Positions 37,165 through 51,096 of a stretch of 64,000 nucleotides of DNA are shown here, piece after piece. The notes under the pieces are model-generated. The model was not told the DNA's origin, made no database searches, and saw only the letters and a program-made list of their open reading frames with translations. The stretch's first letter is position 1; each line of letters starts with the position of its first letter. The position numbers and the translations under genes are program-made. Origin of the DNA: Tetrapisispora phaffii CBS 4417 (Eukaryota > Ascomycota > Saccharomycetes > Saccharomycetales > Saccharomycetaceae). The stretch is taken from assembly GCF_000236905.1 (NCBI RefSeq), contig NC_016535.1, positions 62,001 through 126,000 on the forward strand, written 5' to 3'.

Positions 37165-39735
37165 CTAATATATGTATTCACGATTCAGGTCCAGAACGGT
37201 TAGTGCTCTATATGTATCTCTAGGCATCTTATATTGAATGGTACCTGCATATATCATGCAGTTTCTTGTTATTTTCTTCAGTTCTTCAATATCATTAGTG
37301 GCTTGAGTGTGTTGCTTGATTATTCTATTAGTATTCTCATATATTCTTTTAGCACATGTCATTACCATCAATAAAATATTTGGAATGTTCTTGATTAGAT
37401 ATTTATCTAGCGTTGGTAATGAATGAGCACCTTTTGAAGCTTCTAATTCATTGCGAAGTGGGATAATATTTAGAGCTTCGATCTCGGAAAGGCATTCACG
37501 CCAATTCTCTTTCGTGAATAGAGCCCTAGCTTTTGAAATCTTTATTAACAGTTTAGTAGTATTAAAGCTTTTATTGTCAATTTTAGCAATTATTTCTGCA
37601 TCTTTAGAGTATTGCAAAACCAAATTTTCAGCAAACAAAATAGCATTAGTTTCAATATTATCCACAATTTGAACTAAGTTACTATCCAATTCTGATTCAC
37701 TTAATAATTCACTTAATTGTTCATTAATTATTTTTATTACCATATCATACTGTTTGGAAAGTTGGCATAGCAATAGACTATCACTTACTCTCTCTTCTTC
37801 ATCAGCTTGAACAATTGCCCTTTGAATGACCTCATTTATAAACTTTTCAGGATTGTCTAATTTTAACAACTCGAGTCTTTGACTTAAAACACCAGGAAGC
37901 TTTACCCCATCTCTATTAACCTTACCCAATAATATTGTGAATTCTTTCGTATCCAAAACCAAATGTAAAAAGGCTTCTTTACATAATTCGAGCTGTTCAT
38001 TATCATTACATAGAGTAATTAACGTAATATATTCAGCTGCAATCCTAGGATCTGAGAATTTAAATGATCGAATGTACGAATTTATGATTGATGCAAAATT
38101 AATACCATTAACTCCAGACTTATTTTGGTGATCTATCAATTTTTTATCAATTAACGATATATACAAATGGACACTGTTAATTTCATCGAACTCAGATAAA
38201 TATTGAACTGCTTCAGAATATAAACCACATAATATTAAAACTTCTAAGTAATTGTTACCAAGTTTGTTTGGTCCATGTGACATTGTAATATTTTGGAATT
38301 CTTCTAAAGAGAAAGATTCATAAACAGAATAACTGCTCTCAGTTGGATCGGTAATTAAAATGAAATGGAACCAAACCCAATCTTCAACTGTCAGTAGAAC
38401 TGAAGGTATAGACTTCCTAGATAAATCACACTTACCAATAATTTTATAAACAGCCAACCTAAAGAGATCTCCGTCAAATGAATTCTTAATATGTTGATTG
38501 AATTCTGAATTTAGTTTAGCAACAAATTCCAATGGTAATTTCCTATCTTTTGAGAATGTATATGCTTTAAAGTAAGCTAGGAAAGGCTGCTCAATTTTTT
38601 TCAAATGTGGTTTGCTTTTATTTAAGACTTCCAAAGCTTCTTCCAATAAACCTGCTCTCATTAAATAGAATACCAAAGCCCATACTGGAACGTTATCAAT
38701 AACTGTTAAATTGTTTATCGTCCAATTTCCTTTTTTATTTTTAAGTTTCATATTCAAAAAAACAATTGCTCTTTCGATATTTGCTTGTAAAATTGGATTA
38801 CTTGAGAAGTTGAATTCAGGTCTCGAAAATTGAATGGATATAGTATTTAAATATTGTTTAAATTCATTTTCTAGATATATTTTTGAATCTTCAACAACAT
38901 TGTTATTATTCAATTTAGATTTCAATATTTTACAACATTTCAACATATTTTTGTCATTTTCATTATCTAATGAAGGTAAGAAGTTATTGTACTCATCAAT
39001 TAATGAAAAAGGCTGTTTGTTTTGTCTATTATTATTGAATACATATATAATTGAAGCATATCTTTCGAATTTCATTCTTGTTAGTTGGTTTTCATTAACA
39101 TCAAAATTTGATTGTGAATTTGGAGAAGAGAAATGGTTGACTTCATTATTAACTTTACGATTGCTATTATAAATGTTTTTACTCTTTAGCATTTTCTTGA
39201 AATTTAATTCAACTTCCTCCTTTCTTTGGTCCCAATCTAAATTCAAAACTTGGTTAATAGAATAATCAAATTCTTTTTCAGTAGTAGACAGTAATTTTTC
39301 AATGGAATATAAAATGTTATTTTGTCTAAATTCTGATTGTTCTTGAGCTTTATTAAGCTCTTTTGAAGCTACACTTGACACATCACTGATAGGATGTATC
39401 TTTAAATTTTTATTTTGAGTTTCTTGTGACATGTCAGTTCTCAGAGTATCATATAGACTATCAAATTCTTCCATAGAGATACCACTCCCAGCTAACAGAT
39501 AGTGTGCTTTTGTATAATTTTTTGTTGCACTCCCATTATGTGCTTCGTTCCTCAATTTCTTGGCTCTTAAGATCAATTCGTCGTAACTTAACTGGATAAG
39601 CCCCAAATCTGAAGAGCTCGAAGGTAAATTCTTAGAAGATGCAACTAACTCGTCAAATAATTTACTGGTTCCATTATTATTTTGAACATGATCATTTTCC
39701 AGTCTTTGATCGACAGGTACCTCATTAACACTCAT
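37165..39735 (-). CDS. NIC96: Nic96, nuclear pore scaffold nucleoporin
   Basis: Nic96 is an inner-ring scaffold nucleoporin that anchors the Nsp1-Nup49-Nup57 channel complex through its N-terminal helix. From the ATG at 39735 (MSVNEVPVDQRLEN) the product has 856 residues (839 in S. cerevisiae). Seen are KLFDELVASSKNLPSSSSDLG with following coiled coil (about 25-160), and the all-helical ACE1-type solenoid with DVPVWALVFYLMRAGLLEEALEVL-like NVPVWALVFYLMRAGL, HIKNSFDGDLFRLAVYKIIGKCDLSRKSIPSV, and the end CMIYAGTIQYKMPRDTYRAL. A 17-codon upstream extension of the frame is not family-like. YFR002W holds the same place near CEN6. Confidence 0.97.
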   Translation of the reverse strand: MSVNEVPVDQRLENDHVQNNNGTSKLFDELVASSKNLPSSSSDLGLIQLSYDELILRAKKLRNEAHNGSATKNYTKAHYLLAGSGISMEEFDSLYDTLRTDMSQETQNKNLKIHPISDVSSVASKELNKAQEQSEFRQNNILYSIEKLLSTTEKEFDYSINQVLNLDWDQRKEEVELNFKKMLKSKNIYNSNRKVNNEVNHFSSPNSQSNFDVNENQLTRMKFERYASIIYVFNNNRQNKQPFSLIDEYNNFLPSLDNENDKNMLKCCKILKSKLNNNNVVEDSKIYLENEFKQYLNTISIQFSRPEFNFSSNPILQANIERAIVFLNMKLKNKKGNWTINNLTVIDNVPVWALVFYLMRAGLLEEALEVLNKSKPHLKKIEQPFLAYFKAYTFSKDRKLPLEFVAKLNSEFNQHIKNSFDGDLFRLAVYKIIGKCDLSRKSIPSVLLTVEDWVWFHFILITDPTESSYSVYESFSLEEFQNITMSHGPNKLGNNYLEVLILCGLYSEAVQYLSEFDEINSVHLYISLIDKKLIDHQNKSGVNGINFASIINSYIRSFKFSDPRIAAEYITLITLCNDNEQLELCKEAFLHLVLDTKEFTILLGKVNRDGVKLPGVLSQRLELLKLDNPEKFINEVIQRAIVQADEEERVSDSLLLCQLSKQYDMVIKIINEQLSELLSESELDSNLVQIVDNIETNAILFAENLVLQYSKDAEIIAKIDNKSFNTTKLLIKISKARALFTKENWRECLSEIEALNIIPLRNELEASKGAHSLPTLDKYLIKNIPNILLMVMTCAKRIYENTNRIIKQHTQATNDIEELKKITRNCMIYAGTIQYKMPRDTYRALTVLDLNREYIY

Positions 39736-41908: not shown

Positions 41909-43342
41909 TTAGTTCACTTTACATAATGCCTTAAGTTGAGCAATATCAACACTCTTTGGTCTTTCTATGGGGAGTCCATAAATCCTATCCCAAACCAGTT
42001 GAGTTAAAGGACCCATTGATCTTGAACAACCAAATATCACAGTAAAAAATAATAATTCCTTTAATCCATAATGATAAAAGATAATACCTGAAGCTGAATC
42101 AACATTTGGATAAGGATTCTTTGTTTTACCATGCTCCAATAAGACTTGGGGTGCAAATGTAGATAACTTTTGCATTAATTTGATATTGTCATCATCTTTG
42201 AACTCAGTGAACTTTCTTTTTTCCACAAAATCCAACATCACATTAAATCTAGGGTCAGGCTTTCTTAATATGGCATGGCCATATCCAGGAATGACTTTCC
42301 TGGAATCTAAAAGATTTTTTAACCTATCTTTAATCTGTTGATCATCATCGATGGAGGTTATTTCCGAGTTCATTTGAATCAAAAACCTTACAACCTCTTG
42401 TGCTGCCAACCCATGCAATGGACCAGCTAAACCCAAAATACCTGACGAATAACTTAGAAAAGGGTCATTCAATGCACTTCCAACTAAATGCGTGGCATGA
42501 GCTGATACATTTCCACCTTCGTGATCTACATGTATCCCCGTATACAAACGCATGAGGTCAATGAAATCATCAGACTGGGATTTAGTTAGGTTACAACGAT
42601 TGCTGGAGTCGGTACTATTAACCATTCCTAGCATGGAACAGATGTTATAACTCCAATCTTTATCTTCGTTAAGGACCCCTAACAGTTCCCCTCCATTACC
42701 TGTTATCTTTGAATATATTCTTCCTGTAATTTCTGGTAAGTAAGCTATTAAATTCATTGCATCTTCATATGTAGAATCCCAATAATTTTCCTTACCAAGT
42801 TGACCTGATGCATATTTGTTGGAGAAACTGGAGTATTTGTTTAATGATGCTAATCCTATAACAAGTTGTGTCATTGGATGCAAATCTTGAGGCAAATCTG
42901 ATAAAAGCTTAATAGTCTCTTGAGGTAGTGACTTGGCCCTCAAAGCTAATTCTTTACTTAGTGAGTTTGCTTCATCCTGTGTTGGGATTTCAGATGTCAT
43001 TAATAGCCACAGCATTGATTCTGGTAAGAAACTATTACTCTTGGAGCCATCTTTCACCTTTGGTAACAGTTTCTGACAATCTTCAATGGTTCGACCATGA
43101 AATCTAATGCCAGTCTCAGGATCTAAAGTTGTGCTTTGCCAAAACATCGACGAATTATTTCTCATACCTCCAATTATAGAACCAATTGTGATATCTCCAA
43201 CTTTAACATTGTTGAATTTGGATTTGATGTTTAACAATTCTTCTTTCTTTTCTGGAATCAATTCAGTTAGTCGTGTCTTCAAATTCTTCACCCCACGATA
43301 ACTGGATGAATGGCTATATAACCTTCTTGTGCTTCTGAGCAT
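41909..43342 (-). CDS. CIT3: Cit3, mitochondrial citrate/2-methylcitrate synthase
   Basis: Cit3 condenses propionyl-CoA (and acetyl-CoA) with oxaloacetate in mitochondria, giving 2-methylcitrate or citrate. The ATG at 43342 gives 477 residues (486 in S. cerevisiae) with an Arg/Ser-rich presequence (MLRSTRRLYSHSSSYRG). Catalytic residues are in place: H274 in VDHEGGNVSAHATHLVGSAL, H356 in PGYGHAILRKPDPR, and D415 in VDSASGIIFYHYG. The choice of CIT3 over CIT1/CIT2 follows from synteny: it is next to PDH1 and one gene from the candidate centromere, as YPR001W is next to CEN16. An in-frame GTG one codon upstream is not used as start. Confidence 0.94.
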   Translation of the reverse strand: MLRSTRRLYSHSSSYRGVKNLKTRLTELIPEKKEELLNIKSKFNNVKVGDITIGSIIGGMRNNSSMFWQSTTLDPETGIRFHGRTIEDCQKLLPKVKDGSKSNSFLPESMLWLLMTSEIPTQDEANSLSKELALRAKSLPQETIKLLSDLPQDLHPMTQLVIGLASLNKYSSFSNKYASGQLGKENYWDSTYEDAMNLIAYLPEITGRIYSKITGNGGELLGVLNEDKDWSYNICSMLGMVNSTDSSNRCNLTKSQSDDFIDLMRLYTGIHVDHEGGNVSAHATHLVGSALNDPFLSYSSGILGLAGPLHGLAAQEVVRFLIQMNSEITSIDDDQQIKDRLKNLLDSRKVIPGYGHAILRKPDPRFNVMLDFVEKRKFTEFKDDDNIKLMQKLSTFAPQVLLEHGKTKNPYPNVDSASGIIFYHYGLKELLFFTVIFGCSRSMGPLTQLVWDRIYGLPIERPKSVDIAQLKALCKVN

Positions 43343-43766: not shown

Positions 43767-44378
43767 CTATGCAAAAGAAACCCTCTTTTTTGATTTCTTA
43801 CTTTCTTTCATAGCATCTTCTTCTTCTTTTTGTGCTTTCTCTAATTCACGTTTGTTCTTTCTACGTAACGTTCTTGCAACTGATGACTTATGTTTGATTT
43901 GGTCTTTAGTTTCTTCTAGTTTATCTTGTTTTGCAGCTTCTTTAACTTCTAATTCTTGACGTTTTATTTCTCTAATTTCTTCAAGTCTTCTTGCTTTCTC
44001 AAGTTTACTCTCTGTTACGTCGTCGTATTTGTCACCAATTGTGTTTATTAAACGGTTAAGAGCTAATAAGTCATGATCTCCCATAAACTTCTTACCTTTC
44101 TTACCATGTCTTAATTTCACACCAGGTACAATGGCTTTGTTTAAAGTTGGAATATCCAATTCCTTATCACTATATTTACGAGGCTGTTTCTTAACACCAT
44201 ATAGTCTAGCACGAGCTTGTTCTTTACTGTTTTCATATTTATTTGGCTTTCTCTTCTTTGATCTCTCAGTTAATTTAGGAACATTAGCCATTTGGTTTCT
44301 AGCTTGTGAATCCTGGAAGACCTCAGGTCTAACCTCACGCATGGTGCTTTGCTTTTTTGATGATTTCTTAACAACCAT
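43767..44378 (-). CDS. LOC1: Loc1, nucleolar 60S assembly and ASH1 mRNA localisation protein
   Basis: Loc1 is a nuclear/nucleolar RNA-binding protein needed for 60S ribosomal subunit assembly and for localisation of ASH1 mRNA. The 203-residue protein (204 in S. cerevisiae) is highly basic and helical: [28 protein letters not shown] start, the conserved [19 protein letters not shown] [26 protein letters not shown], and a Lys/Glu coiled tail ending KKRVSFA. Position matches YFR001W, the gene on the right of CEN6. PAC-like and RRPE motifs lie about 145-175 bases upstream, fitting a ribosome-biogenesis gene. Confidence 0.95.
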
Positions 44379-44554: not shown

Positions 44555-44658
44555 ACGAAGAAAGAAATTTATAAAATCATACAATTGCGGACACACATTC
44601 ACTAAAGAAAAAGCACATACACAGATTATGTTATAATATTTTTCAAAAGATAAACTAT

Positions 44659-44809
44659 TTTCGGAAATCAATGTATTAAATGTTATATTATTATTTAAAA
44701 TTCAATTACTTTTATAAGTAACAAAAATTAAATACCTTGAATAAGTTATTATCAGATTTCTTAGAATAATATTTAAGAAAATATTTTTAATTAAAATAGT
44801 TCATGTGTA
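44659..44809 (-). other. CEN: Candidate point centromere (CDEI-CDEII-CDEIII)
   Basis: On the minus strand a perfect CDEIII core TTTCCGAAA (44659-44667), preceded by TTGA, follows about 125 bases of AT-rich DNA (44677-44801; 15 G/C counted by hand, 88% AT). A CDEI-like CACATG (44802-44807) stands at the other end. This is the CDEI-CDEII-CDEIII order of yeast point centromeres. The left half of CDEIII (TGTWTWTG) matches poorly and CDEI matches 6 of 8 bases of RTCACRTG, so sequence alone is not decisive. Position is strong support: LOC1, CIT3 and PDH1 (right of CEN6/CEN16) lie on one side and SNF8 and DEG1 (left of CEN16/CEN6) on the other, with strands as expected. Confidence 0.65.
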
Positions 44810-45050
44810 TTTGGAACGGATTTATTAGGTTAGTATTTATTATTTTGATTTCTTGTATGTCTCTGATTTGTCTTGTTAAGGCTTTTTTACATTATCGATG
44901 CCATTTATATTTTGAAGATTAAAGAATAGGTAATAGACATGCTATATATTTAGAGTTTTATGTAATAATGTAAAATCTGCCTGTCAATAATGCGATAGCA
45001 GTTTGTGTTATAATTATACTAATTTACAATATAGAATATTCTTCTAGAAC

Positions 45051-45764
45051 ATGAAGAGATTCGGTTTGGCAGCACTAGGTGACCAACAAGATCAAAGGTA
45101 TTCAGATGTGAGTAATGATATACTGAAAAGACAATCCGTTGAGTTAGACGAACAACTTTCGATATTCAGAGATAGGTTAATTAAGTTTGCAAAAAAGCAT
45201 AATAAGGAAATTAAGGAGAACTCTGAATTTAGATCGAAATTTATGCGTATGTGTTCTTCAATTGGTATAGATCCCTTATCCTTGTTTGATAAGGACAGGC
45301 ATATATTTAATGCAGAAGATTTTTATTATGAGATATGTGTTAAAATAATTGAGATATGTAGGCAAACTAGGGATATGAATGGAGGAATTACATCATTAGA
45401 TGAATTAGAGAATGGATATTTTGCAAATTTAAAATTAGATAGGACTGATTTAGAGAAATCCATTGAAATGCTGAAATCTTTAGACGGGGGCATCGAAACA
45501 TTTCAAATAAAGGGTAGAAAGTTTTTAAGAAGTATTCCTAATGAATTGACTAGTGATCAAACGAAAATTTTAGAAGTTTGTTCAGTATTAGGCTACGCAA
45601 GTATTTCACTGCTTAAAGCCAATTTAGATTGGAAAAGAGTAAGAAGTAAGGCTGTTTTGGATGAAATGGTATCGAATGGCTTACTTTGGGTTGATAATCA
45701 AAATAATGGTAAAGAAGTTCTTTTTTGGGATCCTTCATGGATTATGAATCTACAAGGAAAGTAG
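45051..45764 (+). CDS. SNF8: Snf8/Vps22, ESCRT-II subunit
   Basis: Snf8 (Vps22) forms ESCRT-II with Vps25 and Vps36, sorting ubiquitinated cargo into multivesicular bodies. The 237-residue protein (233 in S. cerevisiae) starts MKRFGLAAL, the family hallmark, followed by a helical segment (SVELDEQLSIFRDRLIKFAKKHNKEIKENSEFRSKFMRMC) and two winged-helix domains (about 75-160 and 165-237). The second contains QTKILEVCSVLGYASISLLKANLDWKRVRSKAVLDEMVSNGLLWVD. It is convergent with DEG1, 110 bases apart. SNF8 is YPL002C, near CEN16 on the left arm. Confidence 0.96.
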   Translation: MKRFGLAALGDQQDQRYSDVSNDILKRQSVELDEQLSIFRDRLIKFAKKHNKEIKENSEFRSKFMRMCSSIGIDPLSLFDKDRHIFNAEDFYYEICVKIIEICRQTRDMNGGITSLDELENGYFANLKLDRTDLEKSIEMLKSLDGGIETFQIKGRKFLRSIPNELTSDQTKILEVCSVLGYASISLLKANLDWKRVRSKAVLDEMVSNGLLWVDNQNNGKEVLFWDPSWIMNLQGK

Positions 45765-45874: not shown

Positions 45875-47143
45875 TTATAGATGATTGCACAATCCTAATT
45901 TATTTTTTGGAATTTTTTTTCTCTGCTTATACTTTTTATTCACTATCTCGTAGGATTCCATGACCTTTCTTTTAAACAGTTTCTCATAGGTACCTACTAT
46001 CTTGCCTTTACCATCTCCTAGATTAATCCTTGTTTTATTTTGGAAATCCTGATCCGCACTTGGGAGTATATCTTGAAATATAGTAGCAACAGTTGATTTC
46101 AGTTGATAACCTAATGTTAACCCTTCAACGATTTTACTATACTTGATAGAGTTATAGTCATTAACATTATTCATGATCCAATCCATTTCTGGAAACTTGC
46201 AATCATAAAGGATTAAAGGTATATCACTTGCCATATCATATATTGGCTTTTGAGGGTTACTGGCAACATCTACTAACTGTGAGACAATCTCCGGTACTTC
46301 TAGATTTTGACCAACTAAAAATAAAATAGCGGTCATGCAACGGACTTGGTGCCATAAGAATGCAGAACCTATTAAATCAAAACAATAAAATTCTTCATTG
46401 ACCTGTAATATTTGTGAACTCATCATTGTTCTTTTAAAATTAGTAATCTGTTTTGAACCATCTAATTTACAAAAATTTCTAAAATCATGTTCACCTTTAA
46501 AGTAGGAAGCAGCAGTTTCCATAGCTGATATATTTAATCCATCTTTCTTAAACAGATATTTATAATGACGGTATTGGCAACTAAATCTTGCATCAAAACC
46601 AGTTGGTGGGCGTAAACAAACTGCAGATATTCTGATATCATCAGGTAACAATTGGTTTAGAATGTTAATGTATTGTATTTCTTTTGAATCGAATTCGGAA
46701 TTCATTTGTTGCTCTGGTGTTAAATTTGATCTTACGTTTAATGAGATGACTTGATTCATTGCACTAACACCCTTATCAGTTCTTCCACATCTACTGAATT
46801 TAAAGTCACTGGGGTTTATTGATGGAATTAGTTTACATTTGTTCATAGCATCTACTATTACACCTTCTACGGTAGGCAATGCAGTTGGCTCCTTTTGAAT
46901 GGCTAAACCATTATAATTCCAGCCTAGATAAGCAAATTTTAATGCAATAAATCTTGTATTATATTTCGAAAAGTCAAATTTCTTCTTCTCATTAAATTTT
47001 TTATTTTTGTTTTGAGTTATTGATTCAGTATTTTCAATCTTATCGTTTGTTTTTTTATTATGTTTGGAAACATTATCTTCTAGTATTTCAAGTCGTCTTA
47101 TTAGGTCTTCTTTGCTCCAAGTTCCGTACGATTTTTCCTCCAT
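45875..47143 (-). CDS. DEG1: Deg1/Pus3, tRNA pseudouridine synthase (positions 38/39)
   Basis: Deg1 (Pus3) converts uridine 38 and 39 of tRNA anticodon arms to pseudouridine, in cytoplasm and mitochondria. The 422-residue protein (442 in S. cerevisiae) has a charged coiled N-terminus (about 1-60), then the TruA-type domain: ALKFAYLGWNYNGLAIQ, catalytic D123 in SRCGRTDKGVSAMNQVISL, GFDARFSCQYRHYKYLF, GEHDFRNFCKLDGSKQITNF and SAFLWHQVRCM. The ATG at 47143 is the first in frame. DEG1 is YFL001W, the left neighbour of CEN6. A PAC motif upstream suits an RNA-modification gene. Confidence 0.96.
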   Translation of the reverse strand: MEEKSYGTWSKEDLIRRLEILEDNVSKHNKKTNDKIENTESITQNKNKKFNEKKKFDFSKYNTRFIALKFAYLGWNYNGLAIQKEPTALPTVEGVIVDAMNKCKLIPSINPSDFKFSRCGRTDKGVSAMNQVISLNVRSNLTPEQQMNSEFDSKEIQYINILNQLLPDDIRISAVCLRPPTGFDARFSCQYRHYKYLFKKDGLNISAMETAASYFKGEHDFRNFCKLDGSKQITNFKRTMMSSQILQVNEEFYCFDLIGSAFLWHQVRCMTAILFLVGQNLEVPEIVSQLVDVASNPQKPIYDMASDIPLILYDCKFPEMDWIMNNVNDYNSIKYSKIVEGLTLGYQLKSTVATIFQDILPSADQDFQNKTRINLGDGKGKIVGTYEKLFKRKVMESYEIVNKKYKQRKKIPKNKLGLCNHL

Positions 47144-47932
47144 TATACCAAACAGCCTATACCTTCGAACTTTTATTTATCTAATAATTTAACATAATGT
47201 TTAGTAATATTCATTTATGTTATTATATAAGGTAAAGAAGTCGACTTATACTTTTATAAATATCATATATTCAATATTAAAAAAATGCGATGAGCTGTAA
47301 ATTTTTATTTCAGCAAAGCGTTTCGGATCTGTGCGGTGCTAATGATATCGAAATATTGCTACTTGGATATATATCTTAAAACTGAACCGATGATTATATG
47401 GTGATGAGAGGATCAAAATGTTGTTATTTGATTAAAATTGCATTGTAAATTTTATGATTATAAGTTGTTAGCAATTATAAACAATTAATATAATGAGTTT
47501 TGACAATATATGTCAAGTTCATTGGAAAGGTAATCAAATATCAGAAAACCTTATATATTTGGATTTCTGGTGTCGTAACATTTTTACATTTTGCTGTTAC
47601 ATCAATAGTTTCAAATAAATATTAAAGTATCCTTGAAAAAGATATATAAACAAGTTGAATTATTATAAGTAATATTTAATATCAAATACTGATCCTCTTG
47701 GTTGCAACAAATCAATTATTGAATACAATATCTTCGATTAGATTCAAATCTCTCTTATCAGTTATCGAAAATTTCGATTAAATACAACCAAAAAAAATAA
47801 GTTTTAATCATTGTTTCATAGAATACAATTATATTATCTTGAGATGTATTTTCATATAGACTTCTAATTATAATGATAAACTTAATGATAACCATTTGTT
47901 GAAGAACTATATCGATATTTATCTATCTATCT
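47144..47932. other. DEG1-ECM15 divergent intergenic region, rearrangement joint
   Basis: 789 AT-rich bases separating DEG1 (next to CEN6 in S. cerevisiae) from ECM15/RMD1 (next to CEN2/CEN4). I searched by eye for a second centromere: the only CCGAA-type hit (47320-47327) has a poor context. A PAC site serves DEG1. A TATC microsatellite (about 47917-47933) abuts the ECM15 ATG. Confidence 0.6.
47287..47294 (+). promoter_or_regulatory. PAC element upstream of DEG1
   Basis: GCGATGAG (continued GCGATGAGCT) is a perfect PAC, followed by TAAATTTTTATTT. It lies about 145 bases before the DEG1 ATG. Confidence 0.65.
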
Positions 47933-48217
47933 ATGCCTTCCTTTAATTGTGTTGTCGACTTATGTCTGTACCCTGTTGGAACAGAATCTGTCAGTGGTTC
48001 CGACTTTGTTGCAAGAGTTGAAAAAAGAATACATGAATCTGGTTTAAAAAGCAGTTTACATAGTGCTGGCACTACTATCGAGGGACCTTGGGATCAAGTG
48101 ATGAGTTTAGTTGGTAAGTTGCATGAGCATTGCCATAAAGAGAATTTCAAGAGAATACATTCGCATATAAGAGTTTGCTCAGTAATAGAGGATGAATGTA
48201 GTGCCTACTACAGATGA
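47933..48217 (+). CDS. ECM15: Ecm15, UPF0045/MTH1187-type thiamine-binding-like protein
   Basis: A 94-residue protein of the MTH1187/YkoF-like ferredoxin-fold family (UPF0045), whose bacterial members bind thiamine or related ligands; the yeast role is unknown, with a cell-wall phenotype giving the name. The core LHSAGTTIEGPWDQVMSLVGKLHE and the HSHIRV strand are conserved with S. cerevisiae Ecm15 (104 residues). After IRV the sequence (CSVIEDECSAYYR) does not resemble the expected final helix and the protein stops about 10 residues early. Neither of the other two frames restores it. The stop is only 14 bases before an assembly gap. ECM15 is YBL001C, the gene left of CEN2. Confidence 0.88.
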   Translation: MPSFNCVVDLCLYPVGTESVSGSDFVARVEKRIHESGLKSSLHSAGTTIEGPWDQVMSLVGKLHEHCHKENFKRIHSHIRVCSVIEDECSAYYR

Positions 48218-48231
48218 TTAACTTCATTTTC

Positions 48232-48300
48232 NNNNNNNNNNNNNNNNNNNNNNNNNNNNNNNNNNNNNNNNNNNNNNNNNNNNNNNNNNNNNNNNNNNNN
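48232..48300. other. Assembly gap (69 N)
   Basis: An unbroken run of N between the convergent ECM15 and RMD1 genes. Its true length and content are unknown; both flanking stops are outside it. Confidence 1.
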
Positions 48301-48345
48301 AATAAGTTCATTGTTTTATGTAAATTTAAAGAAATATTAAGTCTT

Positions 48346-49686
48346 TCAATTCGAATATGCAAACAAATCAACAGAAATGTTTATGACTGATAATAAAACT
48401 TCTACACCGACCAATACTATTACAATAAATTCTAAATACTCTTCCTGTGTGTGCCCCAGTTGTTCTTTTAACATTTGTAATAAATCAGATACCACTTCTA
48501 ATCTTTGATTTAGAAGAGCTACACGTTGATTAATTTCCAAGTAGCCTCTAGTTGCTTGGTAAATGGGTTCTAATTGTGGCTCTGACCACATGATTTCCGG
48601 TGAATCCAAAATAGAACCATGCAGATTAATATTTATACGAAGAATGAATAGTTCACCGATACTTTTCATAATATCTTCTTTACTCATAGAAACTTTACCA
48701 CTTGATGCAATTTCTTGAGGGATGTCTTGCGTGTCTTCGATAGTATTATCCAATAATTCTTCAAATAATGAAATTTTTACACTCTGAGATAATGCATGAG
48801 ATATTGAAAGTTTTGTCATGTAATTCGAGCCGTCTCTTAATGTTATAAAATCATTGTAAATTCTTGGTTGATAACTTTCTGTCACATAGTAATTAAATTC
48901 TTCTATCTGTATATCTTCTTCAGCTAGTTTTTCCTTTTCATACTTTTCAATATCATTTAAAAATTCTTTTTCTTCTCTTTCTGTAAAACCCCAAAGTACC
49001 ACGACACCATATTCGAATATAAAAACATCTGGTTGTTTATCACTTACATTAATTTCACCACCTTCATCATCAAATCGAATGAAATCTTCACGTTCATACC
49101 TTTTATCGCCTCTCGAATCAGTATATATGAATGGTGTATAAAGACACTCATCAAACAATTTGGGATGAGAACGAAATTGATGTTTGGAATCCTTTAGCCA
49201 TCTGATAAGACCCCTCATATTATAACTACTTGCTGTGCAGAATGCCGTTACTCTCGGTAGTAAATGTCTATGGGCTTTCCCTAATTTTTCAGCATCCCTT
49301 CTTGCACTTTTATCCTTAATCCTATTTACTTGTGAATAAACTTCATTTTCTGGGAGATCAGGAAAATTATTATGATCTAAATCATAAGGTTCTTCAGGAA
49401 GTAATTTTAGTTTCTGAGTAGTACGTGAAGTTCTTTGTGCACCTGATCGTACATGCTTATTTTTATTAATTTCTGCATCGATTGGTAAGTTCAAGCTGTC
49501 TGCAACGTCATTCGAAACAAAATATTCAGGTTCTTTCATACCCTTCGGAACATATTTCGTCGATGCTTTACTAGTAGAGAGATTATGACCAGTATTGACT
49601 ATTGCATTTGTTGAAGATCCAGTTTGAATATTATTTTCCTTGTTACCAATTAAAGGAGTTTGTTCTTGAGAGTCCTTACTTTGCAT
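48346..49686 (-). CDS. RMD1: Rmd1, DUF155 membrane protein of the RMND1 family
   Basis: A 446-residue DUF155 protein related to S. cerevisiae Rmd1 (YDL001W, 430 residues), Rmd8 and mitochondrial RMND1. The yeast protein is needed for sporulation; biochemical function is not known. An N-terminal low-complexity part (about 1-95) is followed by the conserved core with RVTAFCTASSYNMRGLIRWLK, DVFIFEYGVVVLWGFTEREEKEFL, YQPRIYNDFITL and KLSISHALSQSVKISLFEELLD, a coiled segment (NQRVALLNQRLEVVSDLLQML) and a hydrophobic C-terminal helix (about 425-442) as tail anchor. RMD1 rather than RMD8 is chosen by synteny with NHP10 (YDL002C) beside it and ECM15. Confidence 0.93.
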   Translation of the reverse strand: MQSKDSQEQTPLIGNKENNIQTGSSTNAIVNTGHNLSTSKASTKYVPKGMKEPEYFVSNDVADSLNLPIDAEINKNKHVRSGAQRTSRTTQKLKLLPEEPYDLDHNNFPDLPENEVYSQVNRIKDKSARRDAEKLGKAHRHLLPRVTAFCTASSYNMRGLIRWLKDSKHQFRSHPKLFDECLYTPFIYTDSRGDKRYEREDFIRFDDEGGEINVSDKQPDVFIFEYGVVVLWGFTEREEKEFLNDIEKYEKEKLAEEDIQIEEFNYYVTESYQPRIYNDFITLRDGSNYMTKLSISHALSQSVKISLFEELLDNTIEDTQDIPQEIASSGKVSMSKEDIMKSIGELFILRININLHGSILDSPEIMWSEPQLEPIYQATRGYLEINQRVALLNQRLEVVSDLLQMLKEQLGHTQEEYLEFIVIVLVGVEVLLSVINISVDLFAYSN

Positions 49687-50331
49687 AATTTTATTGAAGA
49701 CCTCTGTCCTTTTTTTGCTTTTGTGCTATCTGTAATATCGAACTTTATATATGTTTAACAGTAGGATGACCATTTACAACCAATATTTTTTCTTTAAAAA
49801 AATACGATGCTTCGAATTGTCTATTACAAGCAAATTGAAAATAGCTTCTTAAATTATTCCTAAACAAGTTATAATAAAATAACTTTAATTGTCCTATAAG
49901 AGATATTTTTTTATGTAAATATTTAATATAACAATACTATTATTACCATTATTCGTTATTAACTATTATTGTTTAGTATTTTAAATATTTAGAAGGTTAA
50001 AAGAAGGGCTCTATTTAAATGTCAATGAGCTAAATCTTTAAAGGAATTAAAATGAAACAATTTGTGGAAATTGTTTAAATTGAAAAATTTAAAAATAAAA
50101 AAAATAATCACAACGAAGTTATTTTAAAATTTGAAAAGAAAGAAAGATAGAAAACAATGAATTAATCTATAAAGTTAGTTGAATTCAAAAGACACAAGAA
50201 CATTGGACTACGCTAATTGTATTCTTACAGATATCATTCCAAGATACCCAATAATAAAGACACGAATAAATATACGTGTACATTCCGATATTCTTTTGAC
50301 AAAGTTAGAATTAATAGATTTAGCAGGAATC
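49687..50331. other. RMD1-NHP10 divergent promoter region
   Basis: 645 very AT-rich bases. The NHP10 frame stays open upstream of its ATG to a TTG at 50179, but that stretch is not family-like. No other feature recognised. Confidence 0.5.
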
Positions 50332-51096
50332 ATGTCTGATTCTGAATTGAAGAGAAAGTTCGATGAGCTTAAAGAGGAAAATGATACTTTAGCACTTGGT
50401 ATTCAAAGAACTAGGATGTCAATTAAAAGATTGAAACTAGAATATAGTGTATTATTAGAGAGACTTGAAGCTAGATTGGAAGTTGATCCGGAATTGAATT
50501 ATGAAAACCCATTACCTACATTAGAATCGTTCAAGAAAGAATTATTAGCTAAACCAATTAAGAAAGGCAAGAGTAAAACTCAAAAGGCTAAAGATAGAGA
50601 TCCGAATTTACCTAAAAGACCTACCAATGCATATTTATTATTTTGCGAAGTCACTAAAGAGAAAATAAGAGAAGCAGGTACCCAAGATGTAACTAAAGGA
50701 TTAGCAGAAGCATGGAAGAAATTGAATGAGGAAGATAGAAAACCATTTTATAAAATGTATAATGATGATAGAGAAAGGTATAAGAAGGAGATGGATGAAT
50801 ATATGAAGAAACATAGTAATCATACGGGAGAAGAAGCTACTTTAATAAAAGATGAACCAGATACAGATGGTGAAACATCGAGTACTAATGTGAAAATAGC
50901 AAGTAAAGAGAACATTGAACTTGATTTAGATGATGACGAAGATGAAGAAATTGGTGAAGAGGAAGAAGAAGAGGAAGAAGAAGAGGAGGAGGAAGAGGAG
51001 GAGGAAGATGACGACGGAGTCGACATCGAGGAAGATGACAATAGCAATGATAACGAACTCGAAGAAGACAAAAAGAAAACAGACAAATCCAGATAG
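50332..51096 (+). CDS. NHP10: Nhp10, HMG-box subunit of INO80
   Basis: Nhp10 is an HMG-box protein of the yeast INO80 remodeller that binds DNA ends and structured DNA. The ATG at 50332 gives 254 residues (203 in S. cerevisiae): an N-terminal coiled coil (about 5-50, LKRKFDELKEENDTLALGIQ), one HMG box (about 94-158, LPKRPTNAYLLFCEVTKEKIREAG ... PFYKMYNDDRERYKKEMDEY) and a long acidic tail with a run of about 19 Glu encoded by GAA/GAG repeats. The tail explains most of the extra length. The repeat tract may vary in length between strains. Another INO80 subunit gene, IES1, lies at the other end of the window; that is likely coincidence. Confidence 0.93.
   Translation: MSDSELKRKFDELKEENDTLALGIQRTRMSIKRLKLEYSVLLERLEARLEVDPELNYENPLPTLESFKKELLAKPIKKGKSKTQKAKDRDPNLPKRPTNAYLLFCEVTKEKIREAGTQDVTKGLAEAWKKLNEEDRKPFYKMYNDDRERYKKEMDEYMKKHSNHTGEEATLIKDEPDTDGETSSTNVKIASKENIELDLDDDEDEEIGEEEEEEEEEEEEEEEEEDDDGVDIEEDDNSNDNELEEDKKKTDKSR

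Follow-up and report, generated by a model that had tools for sequence, protein, structure and literature searches.

Gene order and a consensus shared by the centromeres of this genome indicate that an interval at 44633-44844 of the window is very probably the active point centromere of contig C16 of Tetrapisispora phaffii, lying at the inherited position of ancestral CEN8; we put the probability of this reading at about 0.93. By the window we mean the whole stretch of 64,000 nucleotides that was analyzed, positions 62,001-126,000 of contig C16, from an assembly of 12,115,070 bases on 17 contigs. The centromere is ordinary in kind, occupying the place expected of it, and unusual in anatomy (Table 1). 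CDEIII reaches further right, as TCCGAACA-N9-TGTTGA, a partial palindrome, and then TTAT.

TABLE 1 Elements of the putative centromere and genes on either side of it (positions in the window)
Feature	Position	Strand	Basis or remark
CDEI, CACATG (8-bp form TACACATG)	44807-44802	-	Sequence; 137 to CCGAA
CDEII, 125 bp, AT 0.88 (88.0%)	44677..44801	-	Sequence; in the 122-126 length class
CDEIII, 26-bp conventional frame, ATACATTGATTTCCGAAAATAGTTTA	44651..44676	-	Sequence; matrix score includes the right-hand extension
CDEIII core, TTTCCGAAA	44667-44659	-	Sequence
CCGAA of CDEIII	44664-44660	-	Sequence
Right box of extended CDEIII, TTTTGA (5/6 against consensus TGTTGA)	44643..44648	-	At +16 from the first C of CCGAA
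TTAT box (4/4 match)	44633..44636	-	At +28
Mirror element, TGGAAC...GGTTAG...TTAT, degenerate, CDEIII-like, beyond CDEI	44811..44844	+	Matrix score 14.69 bits
LOC1, flank on the CDEIII side	43767..44378	-	PDB 7nac_7 (yeast LOC1), E 7.7e-76; no Pfam family
SNF8, flank on the CDEI side	45051..45764	+	PDB 1u5t (yeast Snf8/Vps22), E 1.1e-103; Pfam EAP30
Citrate synthase, ancestral CEN8 right arm	41909..43342	-	Pfam PF00285
NIC96, ancestral CEN8 right arm	37165..39735	-	Pfam PF04097
Pseudouridine synthase, ancestral CEN8 left arm	45875..47143	-	Pfam PF01416

The original prediction had proposed a candidate point centromere on the minus strand, composed of CACATG, a spacer (125 bp, 88% AT), and TTTCCGAAA; every one of these elements was found, and the proposal is supported by where they lie, by their order and orientation, and by the length and AT content of the spacer. 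The interval that it gave, 44659..44809, takes in the core elements and misses both the right-hand boxes of CDEIII and the inverted copy, which lie outside it. Conventional centromeres, as Gordon et al. (2011; PMC3141009) describe them, have an invariant CCGAA in CDEIII, an invariant CA..TG in CDEI, and a CDEII of 76-98% AT whose length varies little within a species. The focal site carries the CCGAA, a CACATG as the CDEI upstream of CDEII, an AT-rich CDEII (88.0% AT) of steady length (125 bp), and an ancestral position marked by the LOC1 and SNF8 flanks, citrate synthase, PrpD, and NIC96. The CDEI consensus printed in PMC3141009, NNCAVBTG, would bar an A at the sixth place, and the S. cerevisiae CDEI is elsewhere given as gtCAC[A/G]TG, which permits that A. 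The CBF3 gene CEP3 is present in this species: the Cep3 family (PF16846) matches at C3:789401-790885 with an E value of 7.0e-158, while 14 control genomes are without a match.

The element had also been assigned to the ancestral CEN6/CEN16 position, an assignment upheld by the LOC1 and SNF8 flanks, both verified by matches to PDB sequences. Pfam families identify the citrate synthase, a PrpD protein on the same side as the synthase and NIC96, and the pseudouridine synthase; from the S. cerevisiae gene order, we take these three to be CIT3, PDH1, and DEG1, respectively. The order then reads NIC96-PDH1-CIT3-LOC1 / CEN / SNF8-DEG1. CDEI faces the SNF8/DEG1 side, matching S. cerevisiae CEN6 and CEN16. 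Ancestral CEN8 corresponds to S. cerevisiae CEN6 and CEN16, both on the + strand, in Table 1 of Gordon et al. (PMC3141009). A second NIC96 flanks the C4 centromere. In the region 45875-51096, the genes past DEG1 are ECM15-like (47933-48217), RMD1-like (DUF155), and NHP10-like (HMG box, INO80F), and their counterparts flank CEN2/CEN4 in S. cerevisiae. The product of the ECM15-like gene is 56% identical over 88 residues to that of the copy beside the C1 centromere; its frame has 94 residues, compared with 106 in the C1 relative, and is followed by a run of N at 48232-48300, which may be a gap in the assembly or sequence that was withheld. The C8 centromere has a neutral trehalase on one side and a sulfate permease and then an ETF-alpha gene on the other (C8:132000-151999). 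Judging from the genes past DEG1 and from the C8 flanks, old rearrangement breakpoints therefore seem to adjoin two centromeres.

Gathering and aligning the centromere intervals of 15 of the 17 contigs, the check that had been suggested with the prediction, yielded a shared consensus that supports the centromere call. The genes that flank S. cerevisiae centromeres were located by family or protein search, and the adjoining stretches were scanned for CCGAA; sites were listed given AT-rich upstream DNA, with an AT cut of 0.83 in one scan and 0.74 in another. The outcome was 15 putative centromeres on 15 distinct contigs, C6 and C17 being the two not represented. Gene order placed 14 of these, C16 included. 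The fifteenth, on C10, lies 12 kb from CDC5; it came from a motif search and is for that reason not independent support; the stretch adjoining CDC5 on C10 held no centromere. A pattern search for CDEI with CDEIII returned 12 matches, 3 of them AT-rich (C12, C13, and C16), and it was here that C12 and C13 first surfaced, to be placed later by their neighboring genes, which from their translations we take to be INP51, CFD1, and PMI40 for C12 and IZH2, DNL4, and SGT2 for C13. On C12, C14, and C15 the AT filter left several CCGAA sites to choose between. We chose the site with a CDEI at 134-138 on C12 and C14 and, on C15, where neither candidate has a CDEI, the site with the better right-hand tail. 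The first 20 kb by the C2 citrate synthase held no centromere, that of C2 lying just beyond, beside CDC10, and on C6 none was found at the 3' side of the CDC5 relative or at two of the C6 motif matches. This relative, encoded at C6:536081-536629, is a diverged polo-box protein whose two aligned pieces are 52% and 47% identical to the CDC5 query, compared with 88% for the close relative on C10.

The 15 centromeres were anchored on CCGAA, which was itself a search criterion and hence stands at 15/15; positions are counted from its first C. A T precedes it in 15/15, C (9/15) and then A (11/15) follow it, and an A stands at +8 in 14/15. Beyond the conventional frame, the successive letters of TGTTG at +16 to +20 are found in 12, 11, 14, 14, and 8 of the 15 centromeres, with 0.99-1.76 bits of information per column, and those of TTAT at +28 to +31 in 12, 13, 15, and 13, the A at +30 being invariant. 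The left half is unconserved, all columns from -24 to -2 holding at most 0.51 bits. In S. cerevisiae the left half of CDEIII has the consensus TGTTTTTG, with a TGT half-site left of the CCG; the focal left half is ATACATTG, and the 15 centromeres show no conserved left half of the S. cerevisiae type. The prediction had read this divergence either as lineage drift or as the mark of a dead element. Because the same divergence is common to the 15-centromere set, it is the species norm, and the first of these readings stands while the second falls. The edges of CDEI do diverge, as had been pointed out, the focal copy matching RTCACRTG at 6/8 positions; C3, C4, and C12 likewise match it at just 6/8.

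The extension forms a palindrome with the core. Positions 0-6 (CCGAACA) mirror 16-22 (TGTT...) about +11, where the mean share of complementary pairs, 0.53, is the best of 60 centers; the next best, +1 with a share of 0.47, is the TTTCCGAAA palindrome itself. Between different centromeres, complementarity is 0.52 at +11 and does not exceed 0.39 at any of 11 other centers tried. The genome has 4 exact copies of TCCGAA-N11-TGTTGA, 3 of these being centromeres known from gene order (C5, C9, and C15). Allowing one mismatch raises the count to 99 sites (reversed control, 57), which take in 10 of the 14 centromeres known before the motif search.

A chance resemblance within an AT-rich divergent promoter, that of the divergently transcribed LOC1 and SNF8, would agree with the frequencies of the core motifs taken alone, which are no rarer than expected. 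The window has one copy of TTTCCGAAA, with 0.98 expected; genome-wide this motif has 107 occurrences, compared with 154 for the reversed control, and thus shows no enrichment, and CACRTG-N110..139-TTTCCGAAA is found once in the whole genome, as is its reversed control. The bare motifs are by themselves not beyond chance. The combined element, however, is a different matter: the layout with a spacer of at least 85% AT arose in 0/200 Markov-resampled windows and is present once in the real one. When scored with a matrix built from 13 centromeres, C16 and C10 excluded, the focal CDEIII with its extension reaches 26.8 bits and ranks first of 127,922 window positions, the runner-up having 14.7 bits and the top score over 50 Markov-resampled windows being 15.1. 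Scored without CCGAA, the focal right-hand tail (+5 to +34) ranks third of 127,942 window positions, and in a comparison of the window's 35 CCGAA sites it has 13.6 bits and the next tail -4.7; the tail fits C2 and C13 poorly (2.3 and 3.4 bits). With gene order also against it, we regard chance as a next to negligible explanation. The decisive support for a centromere is the genome's own consensus together with gene order.

A relic, that is, a decayed centromere whose Cse4 is now elsewhere on the chromosome, would make sense of CDEI flanks and a CDEIII left half unlike those of S. cerevisiae, and of a right arm rearranged so that DEG1 is followed by the ECM15-like, DUF155, and HMG-box genes that belong to the CEN2/CEN4 flanks in S. 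cerevisiae. The other centromeres, however, show identical departures, and the focal site has retained its extended boxes (5/6 and 4/4) along with its 26.8-bit score. Three C16 sites are among the 99 one-mismatch matches, and only the focal one has an intact TCCGAA; none of the eight best sites listed for the window falls in the interval past DEG1. We consider decay very unlikely on these grounds and retain the reading of an active centromere.

Spacing divides the putative centromeres into two classes about 10 bp apart, CDEII length being taken as the CDEI-to-CCGAA distance minus 12. The distance from the CDEI end to CCGAA is 134-138 (CDEII 122-126) in C8, C12, C13, C14, and C16 and 145-149 (CDEII 133-137) in C1, C2, C3, C4, C5, C7, C9, and C11; closest to the focal 137 are C13 (137), C12 (138), and C8 (136). 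The spacing is thus matched in 13/15 centromeres, 3 of them with an altered CDEI core (TATATG in C4, AACGTG in C9, and CACGGG in C11), and CA..TG is kept at the proper distance in 10/15. No CDEI was found at the expected distance in C15 or in C10, for which the sequence reaches only to -176. The C15 centromere (C15:39021-39200) looks nearly symmetric: two CCGAA sites face each other at a distance of 179 bp, and no CDEI was seen between them.

Outside the focal CDEI, the mirror element ranks second of the 127,922 window positions (14.69 bits, on the opposite strand at 44812), and a matrix with an AT-rich background also places it second in the window, narrowly (11.3 versus 10.9). That kind of matrix was used to scan the whole set, with each centromere scored by the remaining ones. 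A match above 5.7 bits on either strand at -95 to -260 is present in 11/15 centromeres (C1, C2, C4, C7, C9, and C11-C16); scores in this region are at least 8.4 bits in 9/15 and at least 11.3 in 7/15, and the versions in C3, C5, and C8 are weak. Among 423,098 noncentromeric positions, 46, 17, and 0 reach 5.7, 8.4, and 11.3 bits; the corresponding counts for 25,312 AT-rich noncentromeric positions are 2, 0, and 0, with none at 6.8 or above. In the intervals +40 to +205, -95 to -12, and -430 to -265 of the centromeres, 0 of 8,788 positions reach 6.8 bits. C13, at -76, is the sole centromere to attain 5.7 in those control intervals, and the only further stray match within 500 bases is at +275 in C8 (7.7 bits).

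The match above 5.7 bits is inverted relative to CDEIII in 10/15 centromeres, the focal one included. The inverted strand scores higher in 9, and C14 is a near tie (11.3 versus 11.6); C7 has a same-strand match only, at -200, which would imply a partner at -178. In 9/15 centromeres the best match on one strand is exactly 22 bases from the best match on the other, a separation that the palindrome predicts; the focal mirror is without a palindromic partner 22 bases away. Distances from mirror to CDEIII in 13 centromeres are 148, 150, 151, 158, 161, 161, 168, 169, 170, 170, 171, 179, and 181, clustering near 150, 160, 170, and 180 bp. A test that scanned periods of 9 to 12 against a null uniform over 145-184 gave 10.2 as the best period (P = 0.0017 with the scan included, n = 13; P = 0.0057 for the ten stronger copies); C7 was excluded for want of a convincing opposite-strand match, and C10 because its sequence extends only to -176. 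The core CCG is degenerate in 10/14 mirror copies, AA, TGTT, and TTAT being better kept. Because the main motif served to select these copies, their likeness to CDEIII is partly selection, and the independent evidence for the mirror consists of the scores against controls and the spacing only. Scoring the main CDEIIIs with a matrix made from the mirror copies was discarded as circular. Combined P values over the centromeres were set aside as well: they are small on the opposite strand but also on the same strand, which we attribute to the palindrome. Weak CDEI and strong mirror show no significant link (Spearman -0.33, P = 0.28, 13 centromeres).

Five centromeres (C1, C4, C7, C11, and C12) appear flipped relative to their S. 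cerevisiae counterparts and nine others do not, C10 being unjudged; for this comparison the S. cerevisiae centromere strands are those of Table 1 in PMC3141009. If flips happen, as these five suggest, the mirror element by itself could be a functionless remnant of past centromere flips or of an inverted duplication, and its degenerate CCG would agree with such an origin. Neutral remnants should drift, however, and the 13 distances to CDEIII cluster helically. The copies, moreover, sit at 14 unrelated loci and, the weak ones and that of C7 included, start 11-34 bp from the inner CDEI end (in 13/14, C15 being without a CDEI). We therefore find a remnant rather unlikely. A working element is what we propose tentatively, at somewhat less than even odds: these centromeres may be double-ended. 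Both halves of a CBF3 dimer would read the partly palindromic extended CDEIII, and the inverted site outside CDEI would lie at whole helical turns from it, so that CBF3 or Ndc10 would clamp the Cse4 nucleosome at both ends and the ends would be interchangeable. If this is true, end-swapping would explain orientation flips such as those of C4, C7, C11, and C12.

What we observe are sequence elements and their statistics, and from these we infer all of the protein contacts that follow. Cbf1 would bind CDEI, a single Cse4 nucleosome would wrap CDEII, and CBF3 (Cep3, Ndc10, Ctf13, and Skp1) would read CDEIII. In T. phaffii, CBF3 may read an extended site, with Cep3 at the CCG and further sequence-specific contacts at TGTTGA and TTAT; contacts that are largely nonspecific in S. 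cerevisiae, made by Ndc10 and by the second CBF3 of the dimer, would have become specific here. The weaker mirror, kept at whole turns of the helix, is probably where one more protomer of Ndc10 or CBF3 sits, across the nucleosome on the CDEI side. For the S. cerevisiae CBF3 dimer on centromeric DNA, a preprint on native kinetochores (PMC12873945) describes one Cep3 as reading the CCG, the other as making contacts that are not sequence specific with pericentromeric DNA past CDEIII, and two Ndc10 as clamping the DNA. One published model sets Ndc10 about 21-30 bp downstream of the CCG, citing thymine crosslinks there (PMC6077249), and in older models the DNA loops so that an Ndc10 dimer connects CDEI to CDEIII (PMC7979930). 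In T. phaffii, TGTTGA lies 14-19 bp and TTAT 26-29 bp downstream of the CCG, and the TTAT spacing thus falls where the model of PMC6077249 puts Ndc10. The placement of the second CBF3 and of a second or third Ndc10, as well as the loop between CDEI and CDEIII, is left open or modeled differently in the structural papers as far as their texts go (PMC6077249, PMC12873945, PMC7979930). In a species where these contacts appear to have become sequence specific at either end, and helically phased, this question of placement would be testable by mutating short boxes. The double-ended layout would also offer a simple route to both the orientation flips and the 10-bp steps in CDEII length.

Among titles, abstract openings, and partial texts of the literature, we found no published description of an inverted second CDEIII or of a conserved right-hand extension. 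The PCAn frame presumably ends near +13, and for that reason PCAn logos would not show the right boxes. The PCAn CDEIII motif is 26 bp long (Helsen et al. 2025, PMC12925627); the main text of that study does not name Tetrapisispora or phaffii, and its supplementary atlas may include these centromeres. It does report two CDEII lengths about 10 bp apart per genome in Vanderwaltozyma and Jamesozyma (PMC12925627), and the two classes of T. phaffii, 122-126 and 133-137, are alike in this respect, although they are some 40-60 bp longer than those of Vanderwaltozyma (about 75 or 85). Kluyveromyces lactis also has an extra element upstream of CDEI, namely CDE0, which aids centromere function and consists of 100 bp of AT-rich DNA about 150 bp from CDEI (PMC9227491), whereas the T. 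phaffii element is a CDEIII-like motif that lies past the CDEI core by anything from a few bp to about 27. The unconventional centromeres of Naumovozyma castellii have other consensus elements and mostly nonancestral positions (PMC4533239); they are alike in being short, sequence defined, and CBF3 bound, CBF3 contact being presumed in T. phaffii. Judged by its ancestral position and its CDEI-III elements, the focal locus is not of the Naumovozyma type (NaCDEI/NaCDEII). The closest likeness is to the S. cerevisiae point centromere, with which it shares the order of elements, the CCGAA core, a CACATG CDEI, an AT-rich CDEII, CEN6/CEN16 synteny, and orientation. The focal CDEII is nevertheless 125 bp long, compared with about 80-90 in S. 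cerevisiae, and the left TGT half-site of CDEIII is conserved in S. cerevisiae but not in T. phaffii. S. cerevisiae is not known to have conserved right boxes or an inverted CDEIII-like copy, whereas T. phaffii has both TGTTGA and TTAT boxes on the right of CDEIII and an inverted CDEIII-like copy beyond CDEI.
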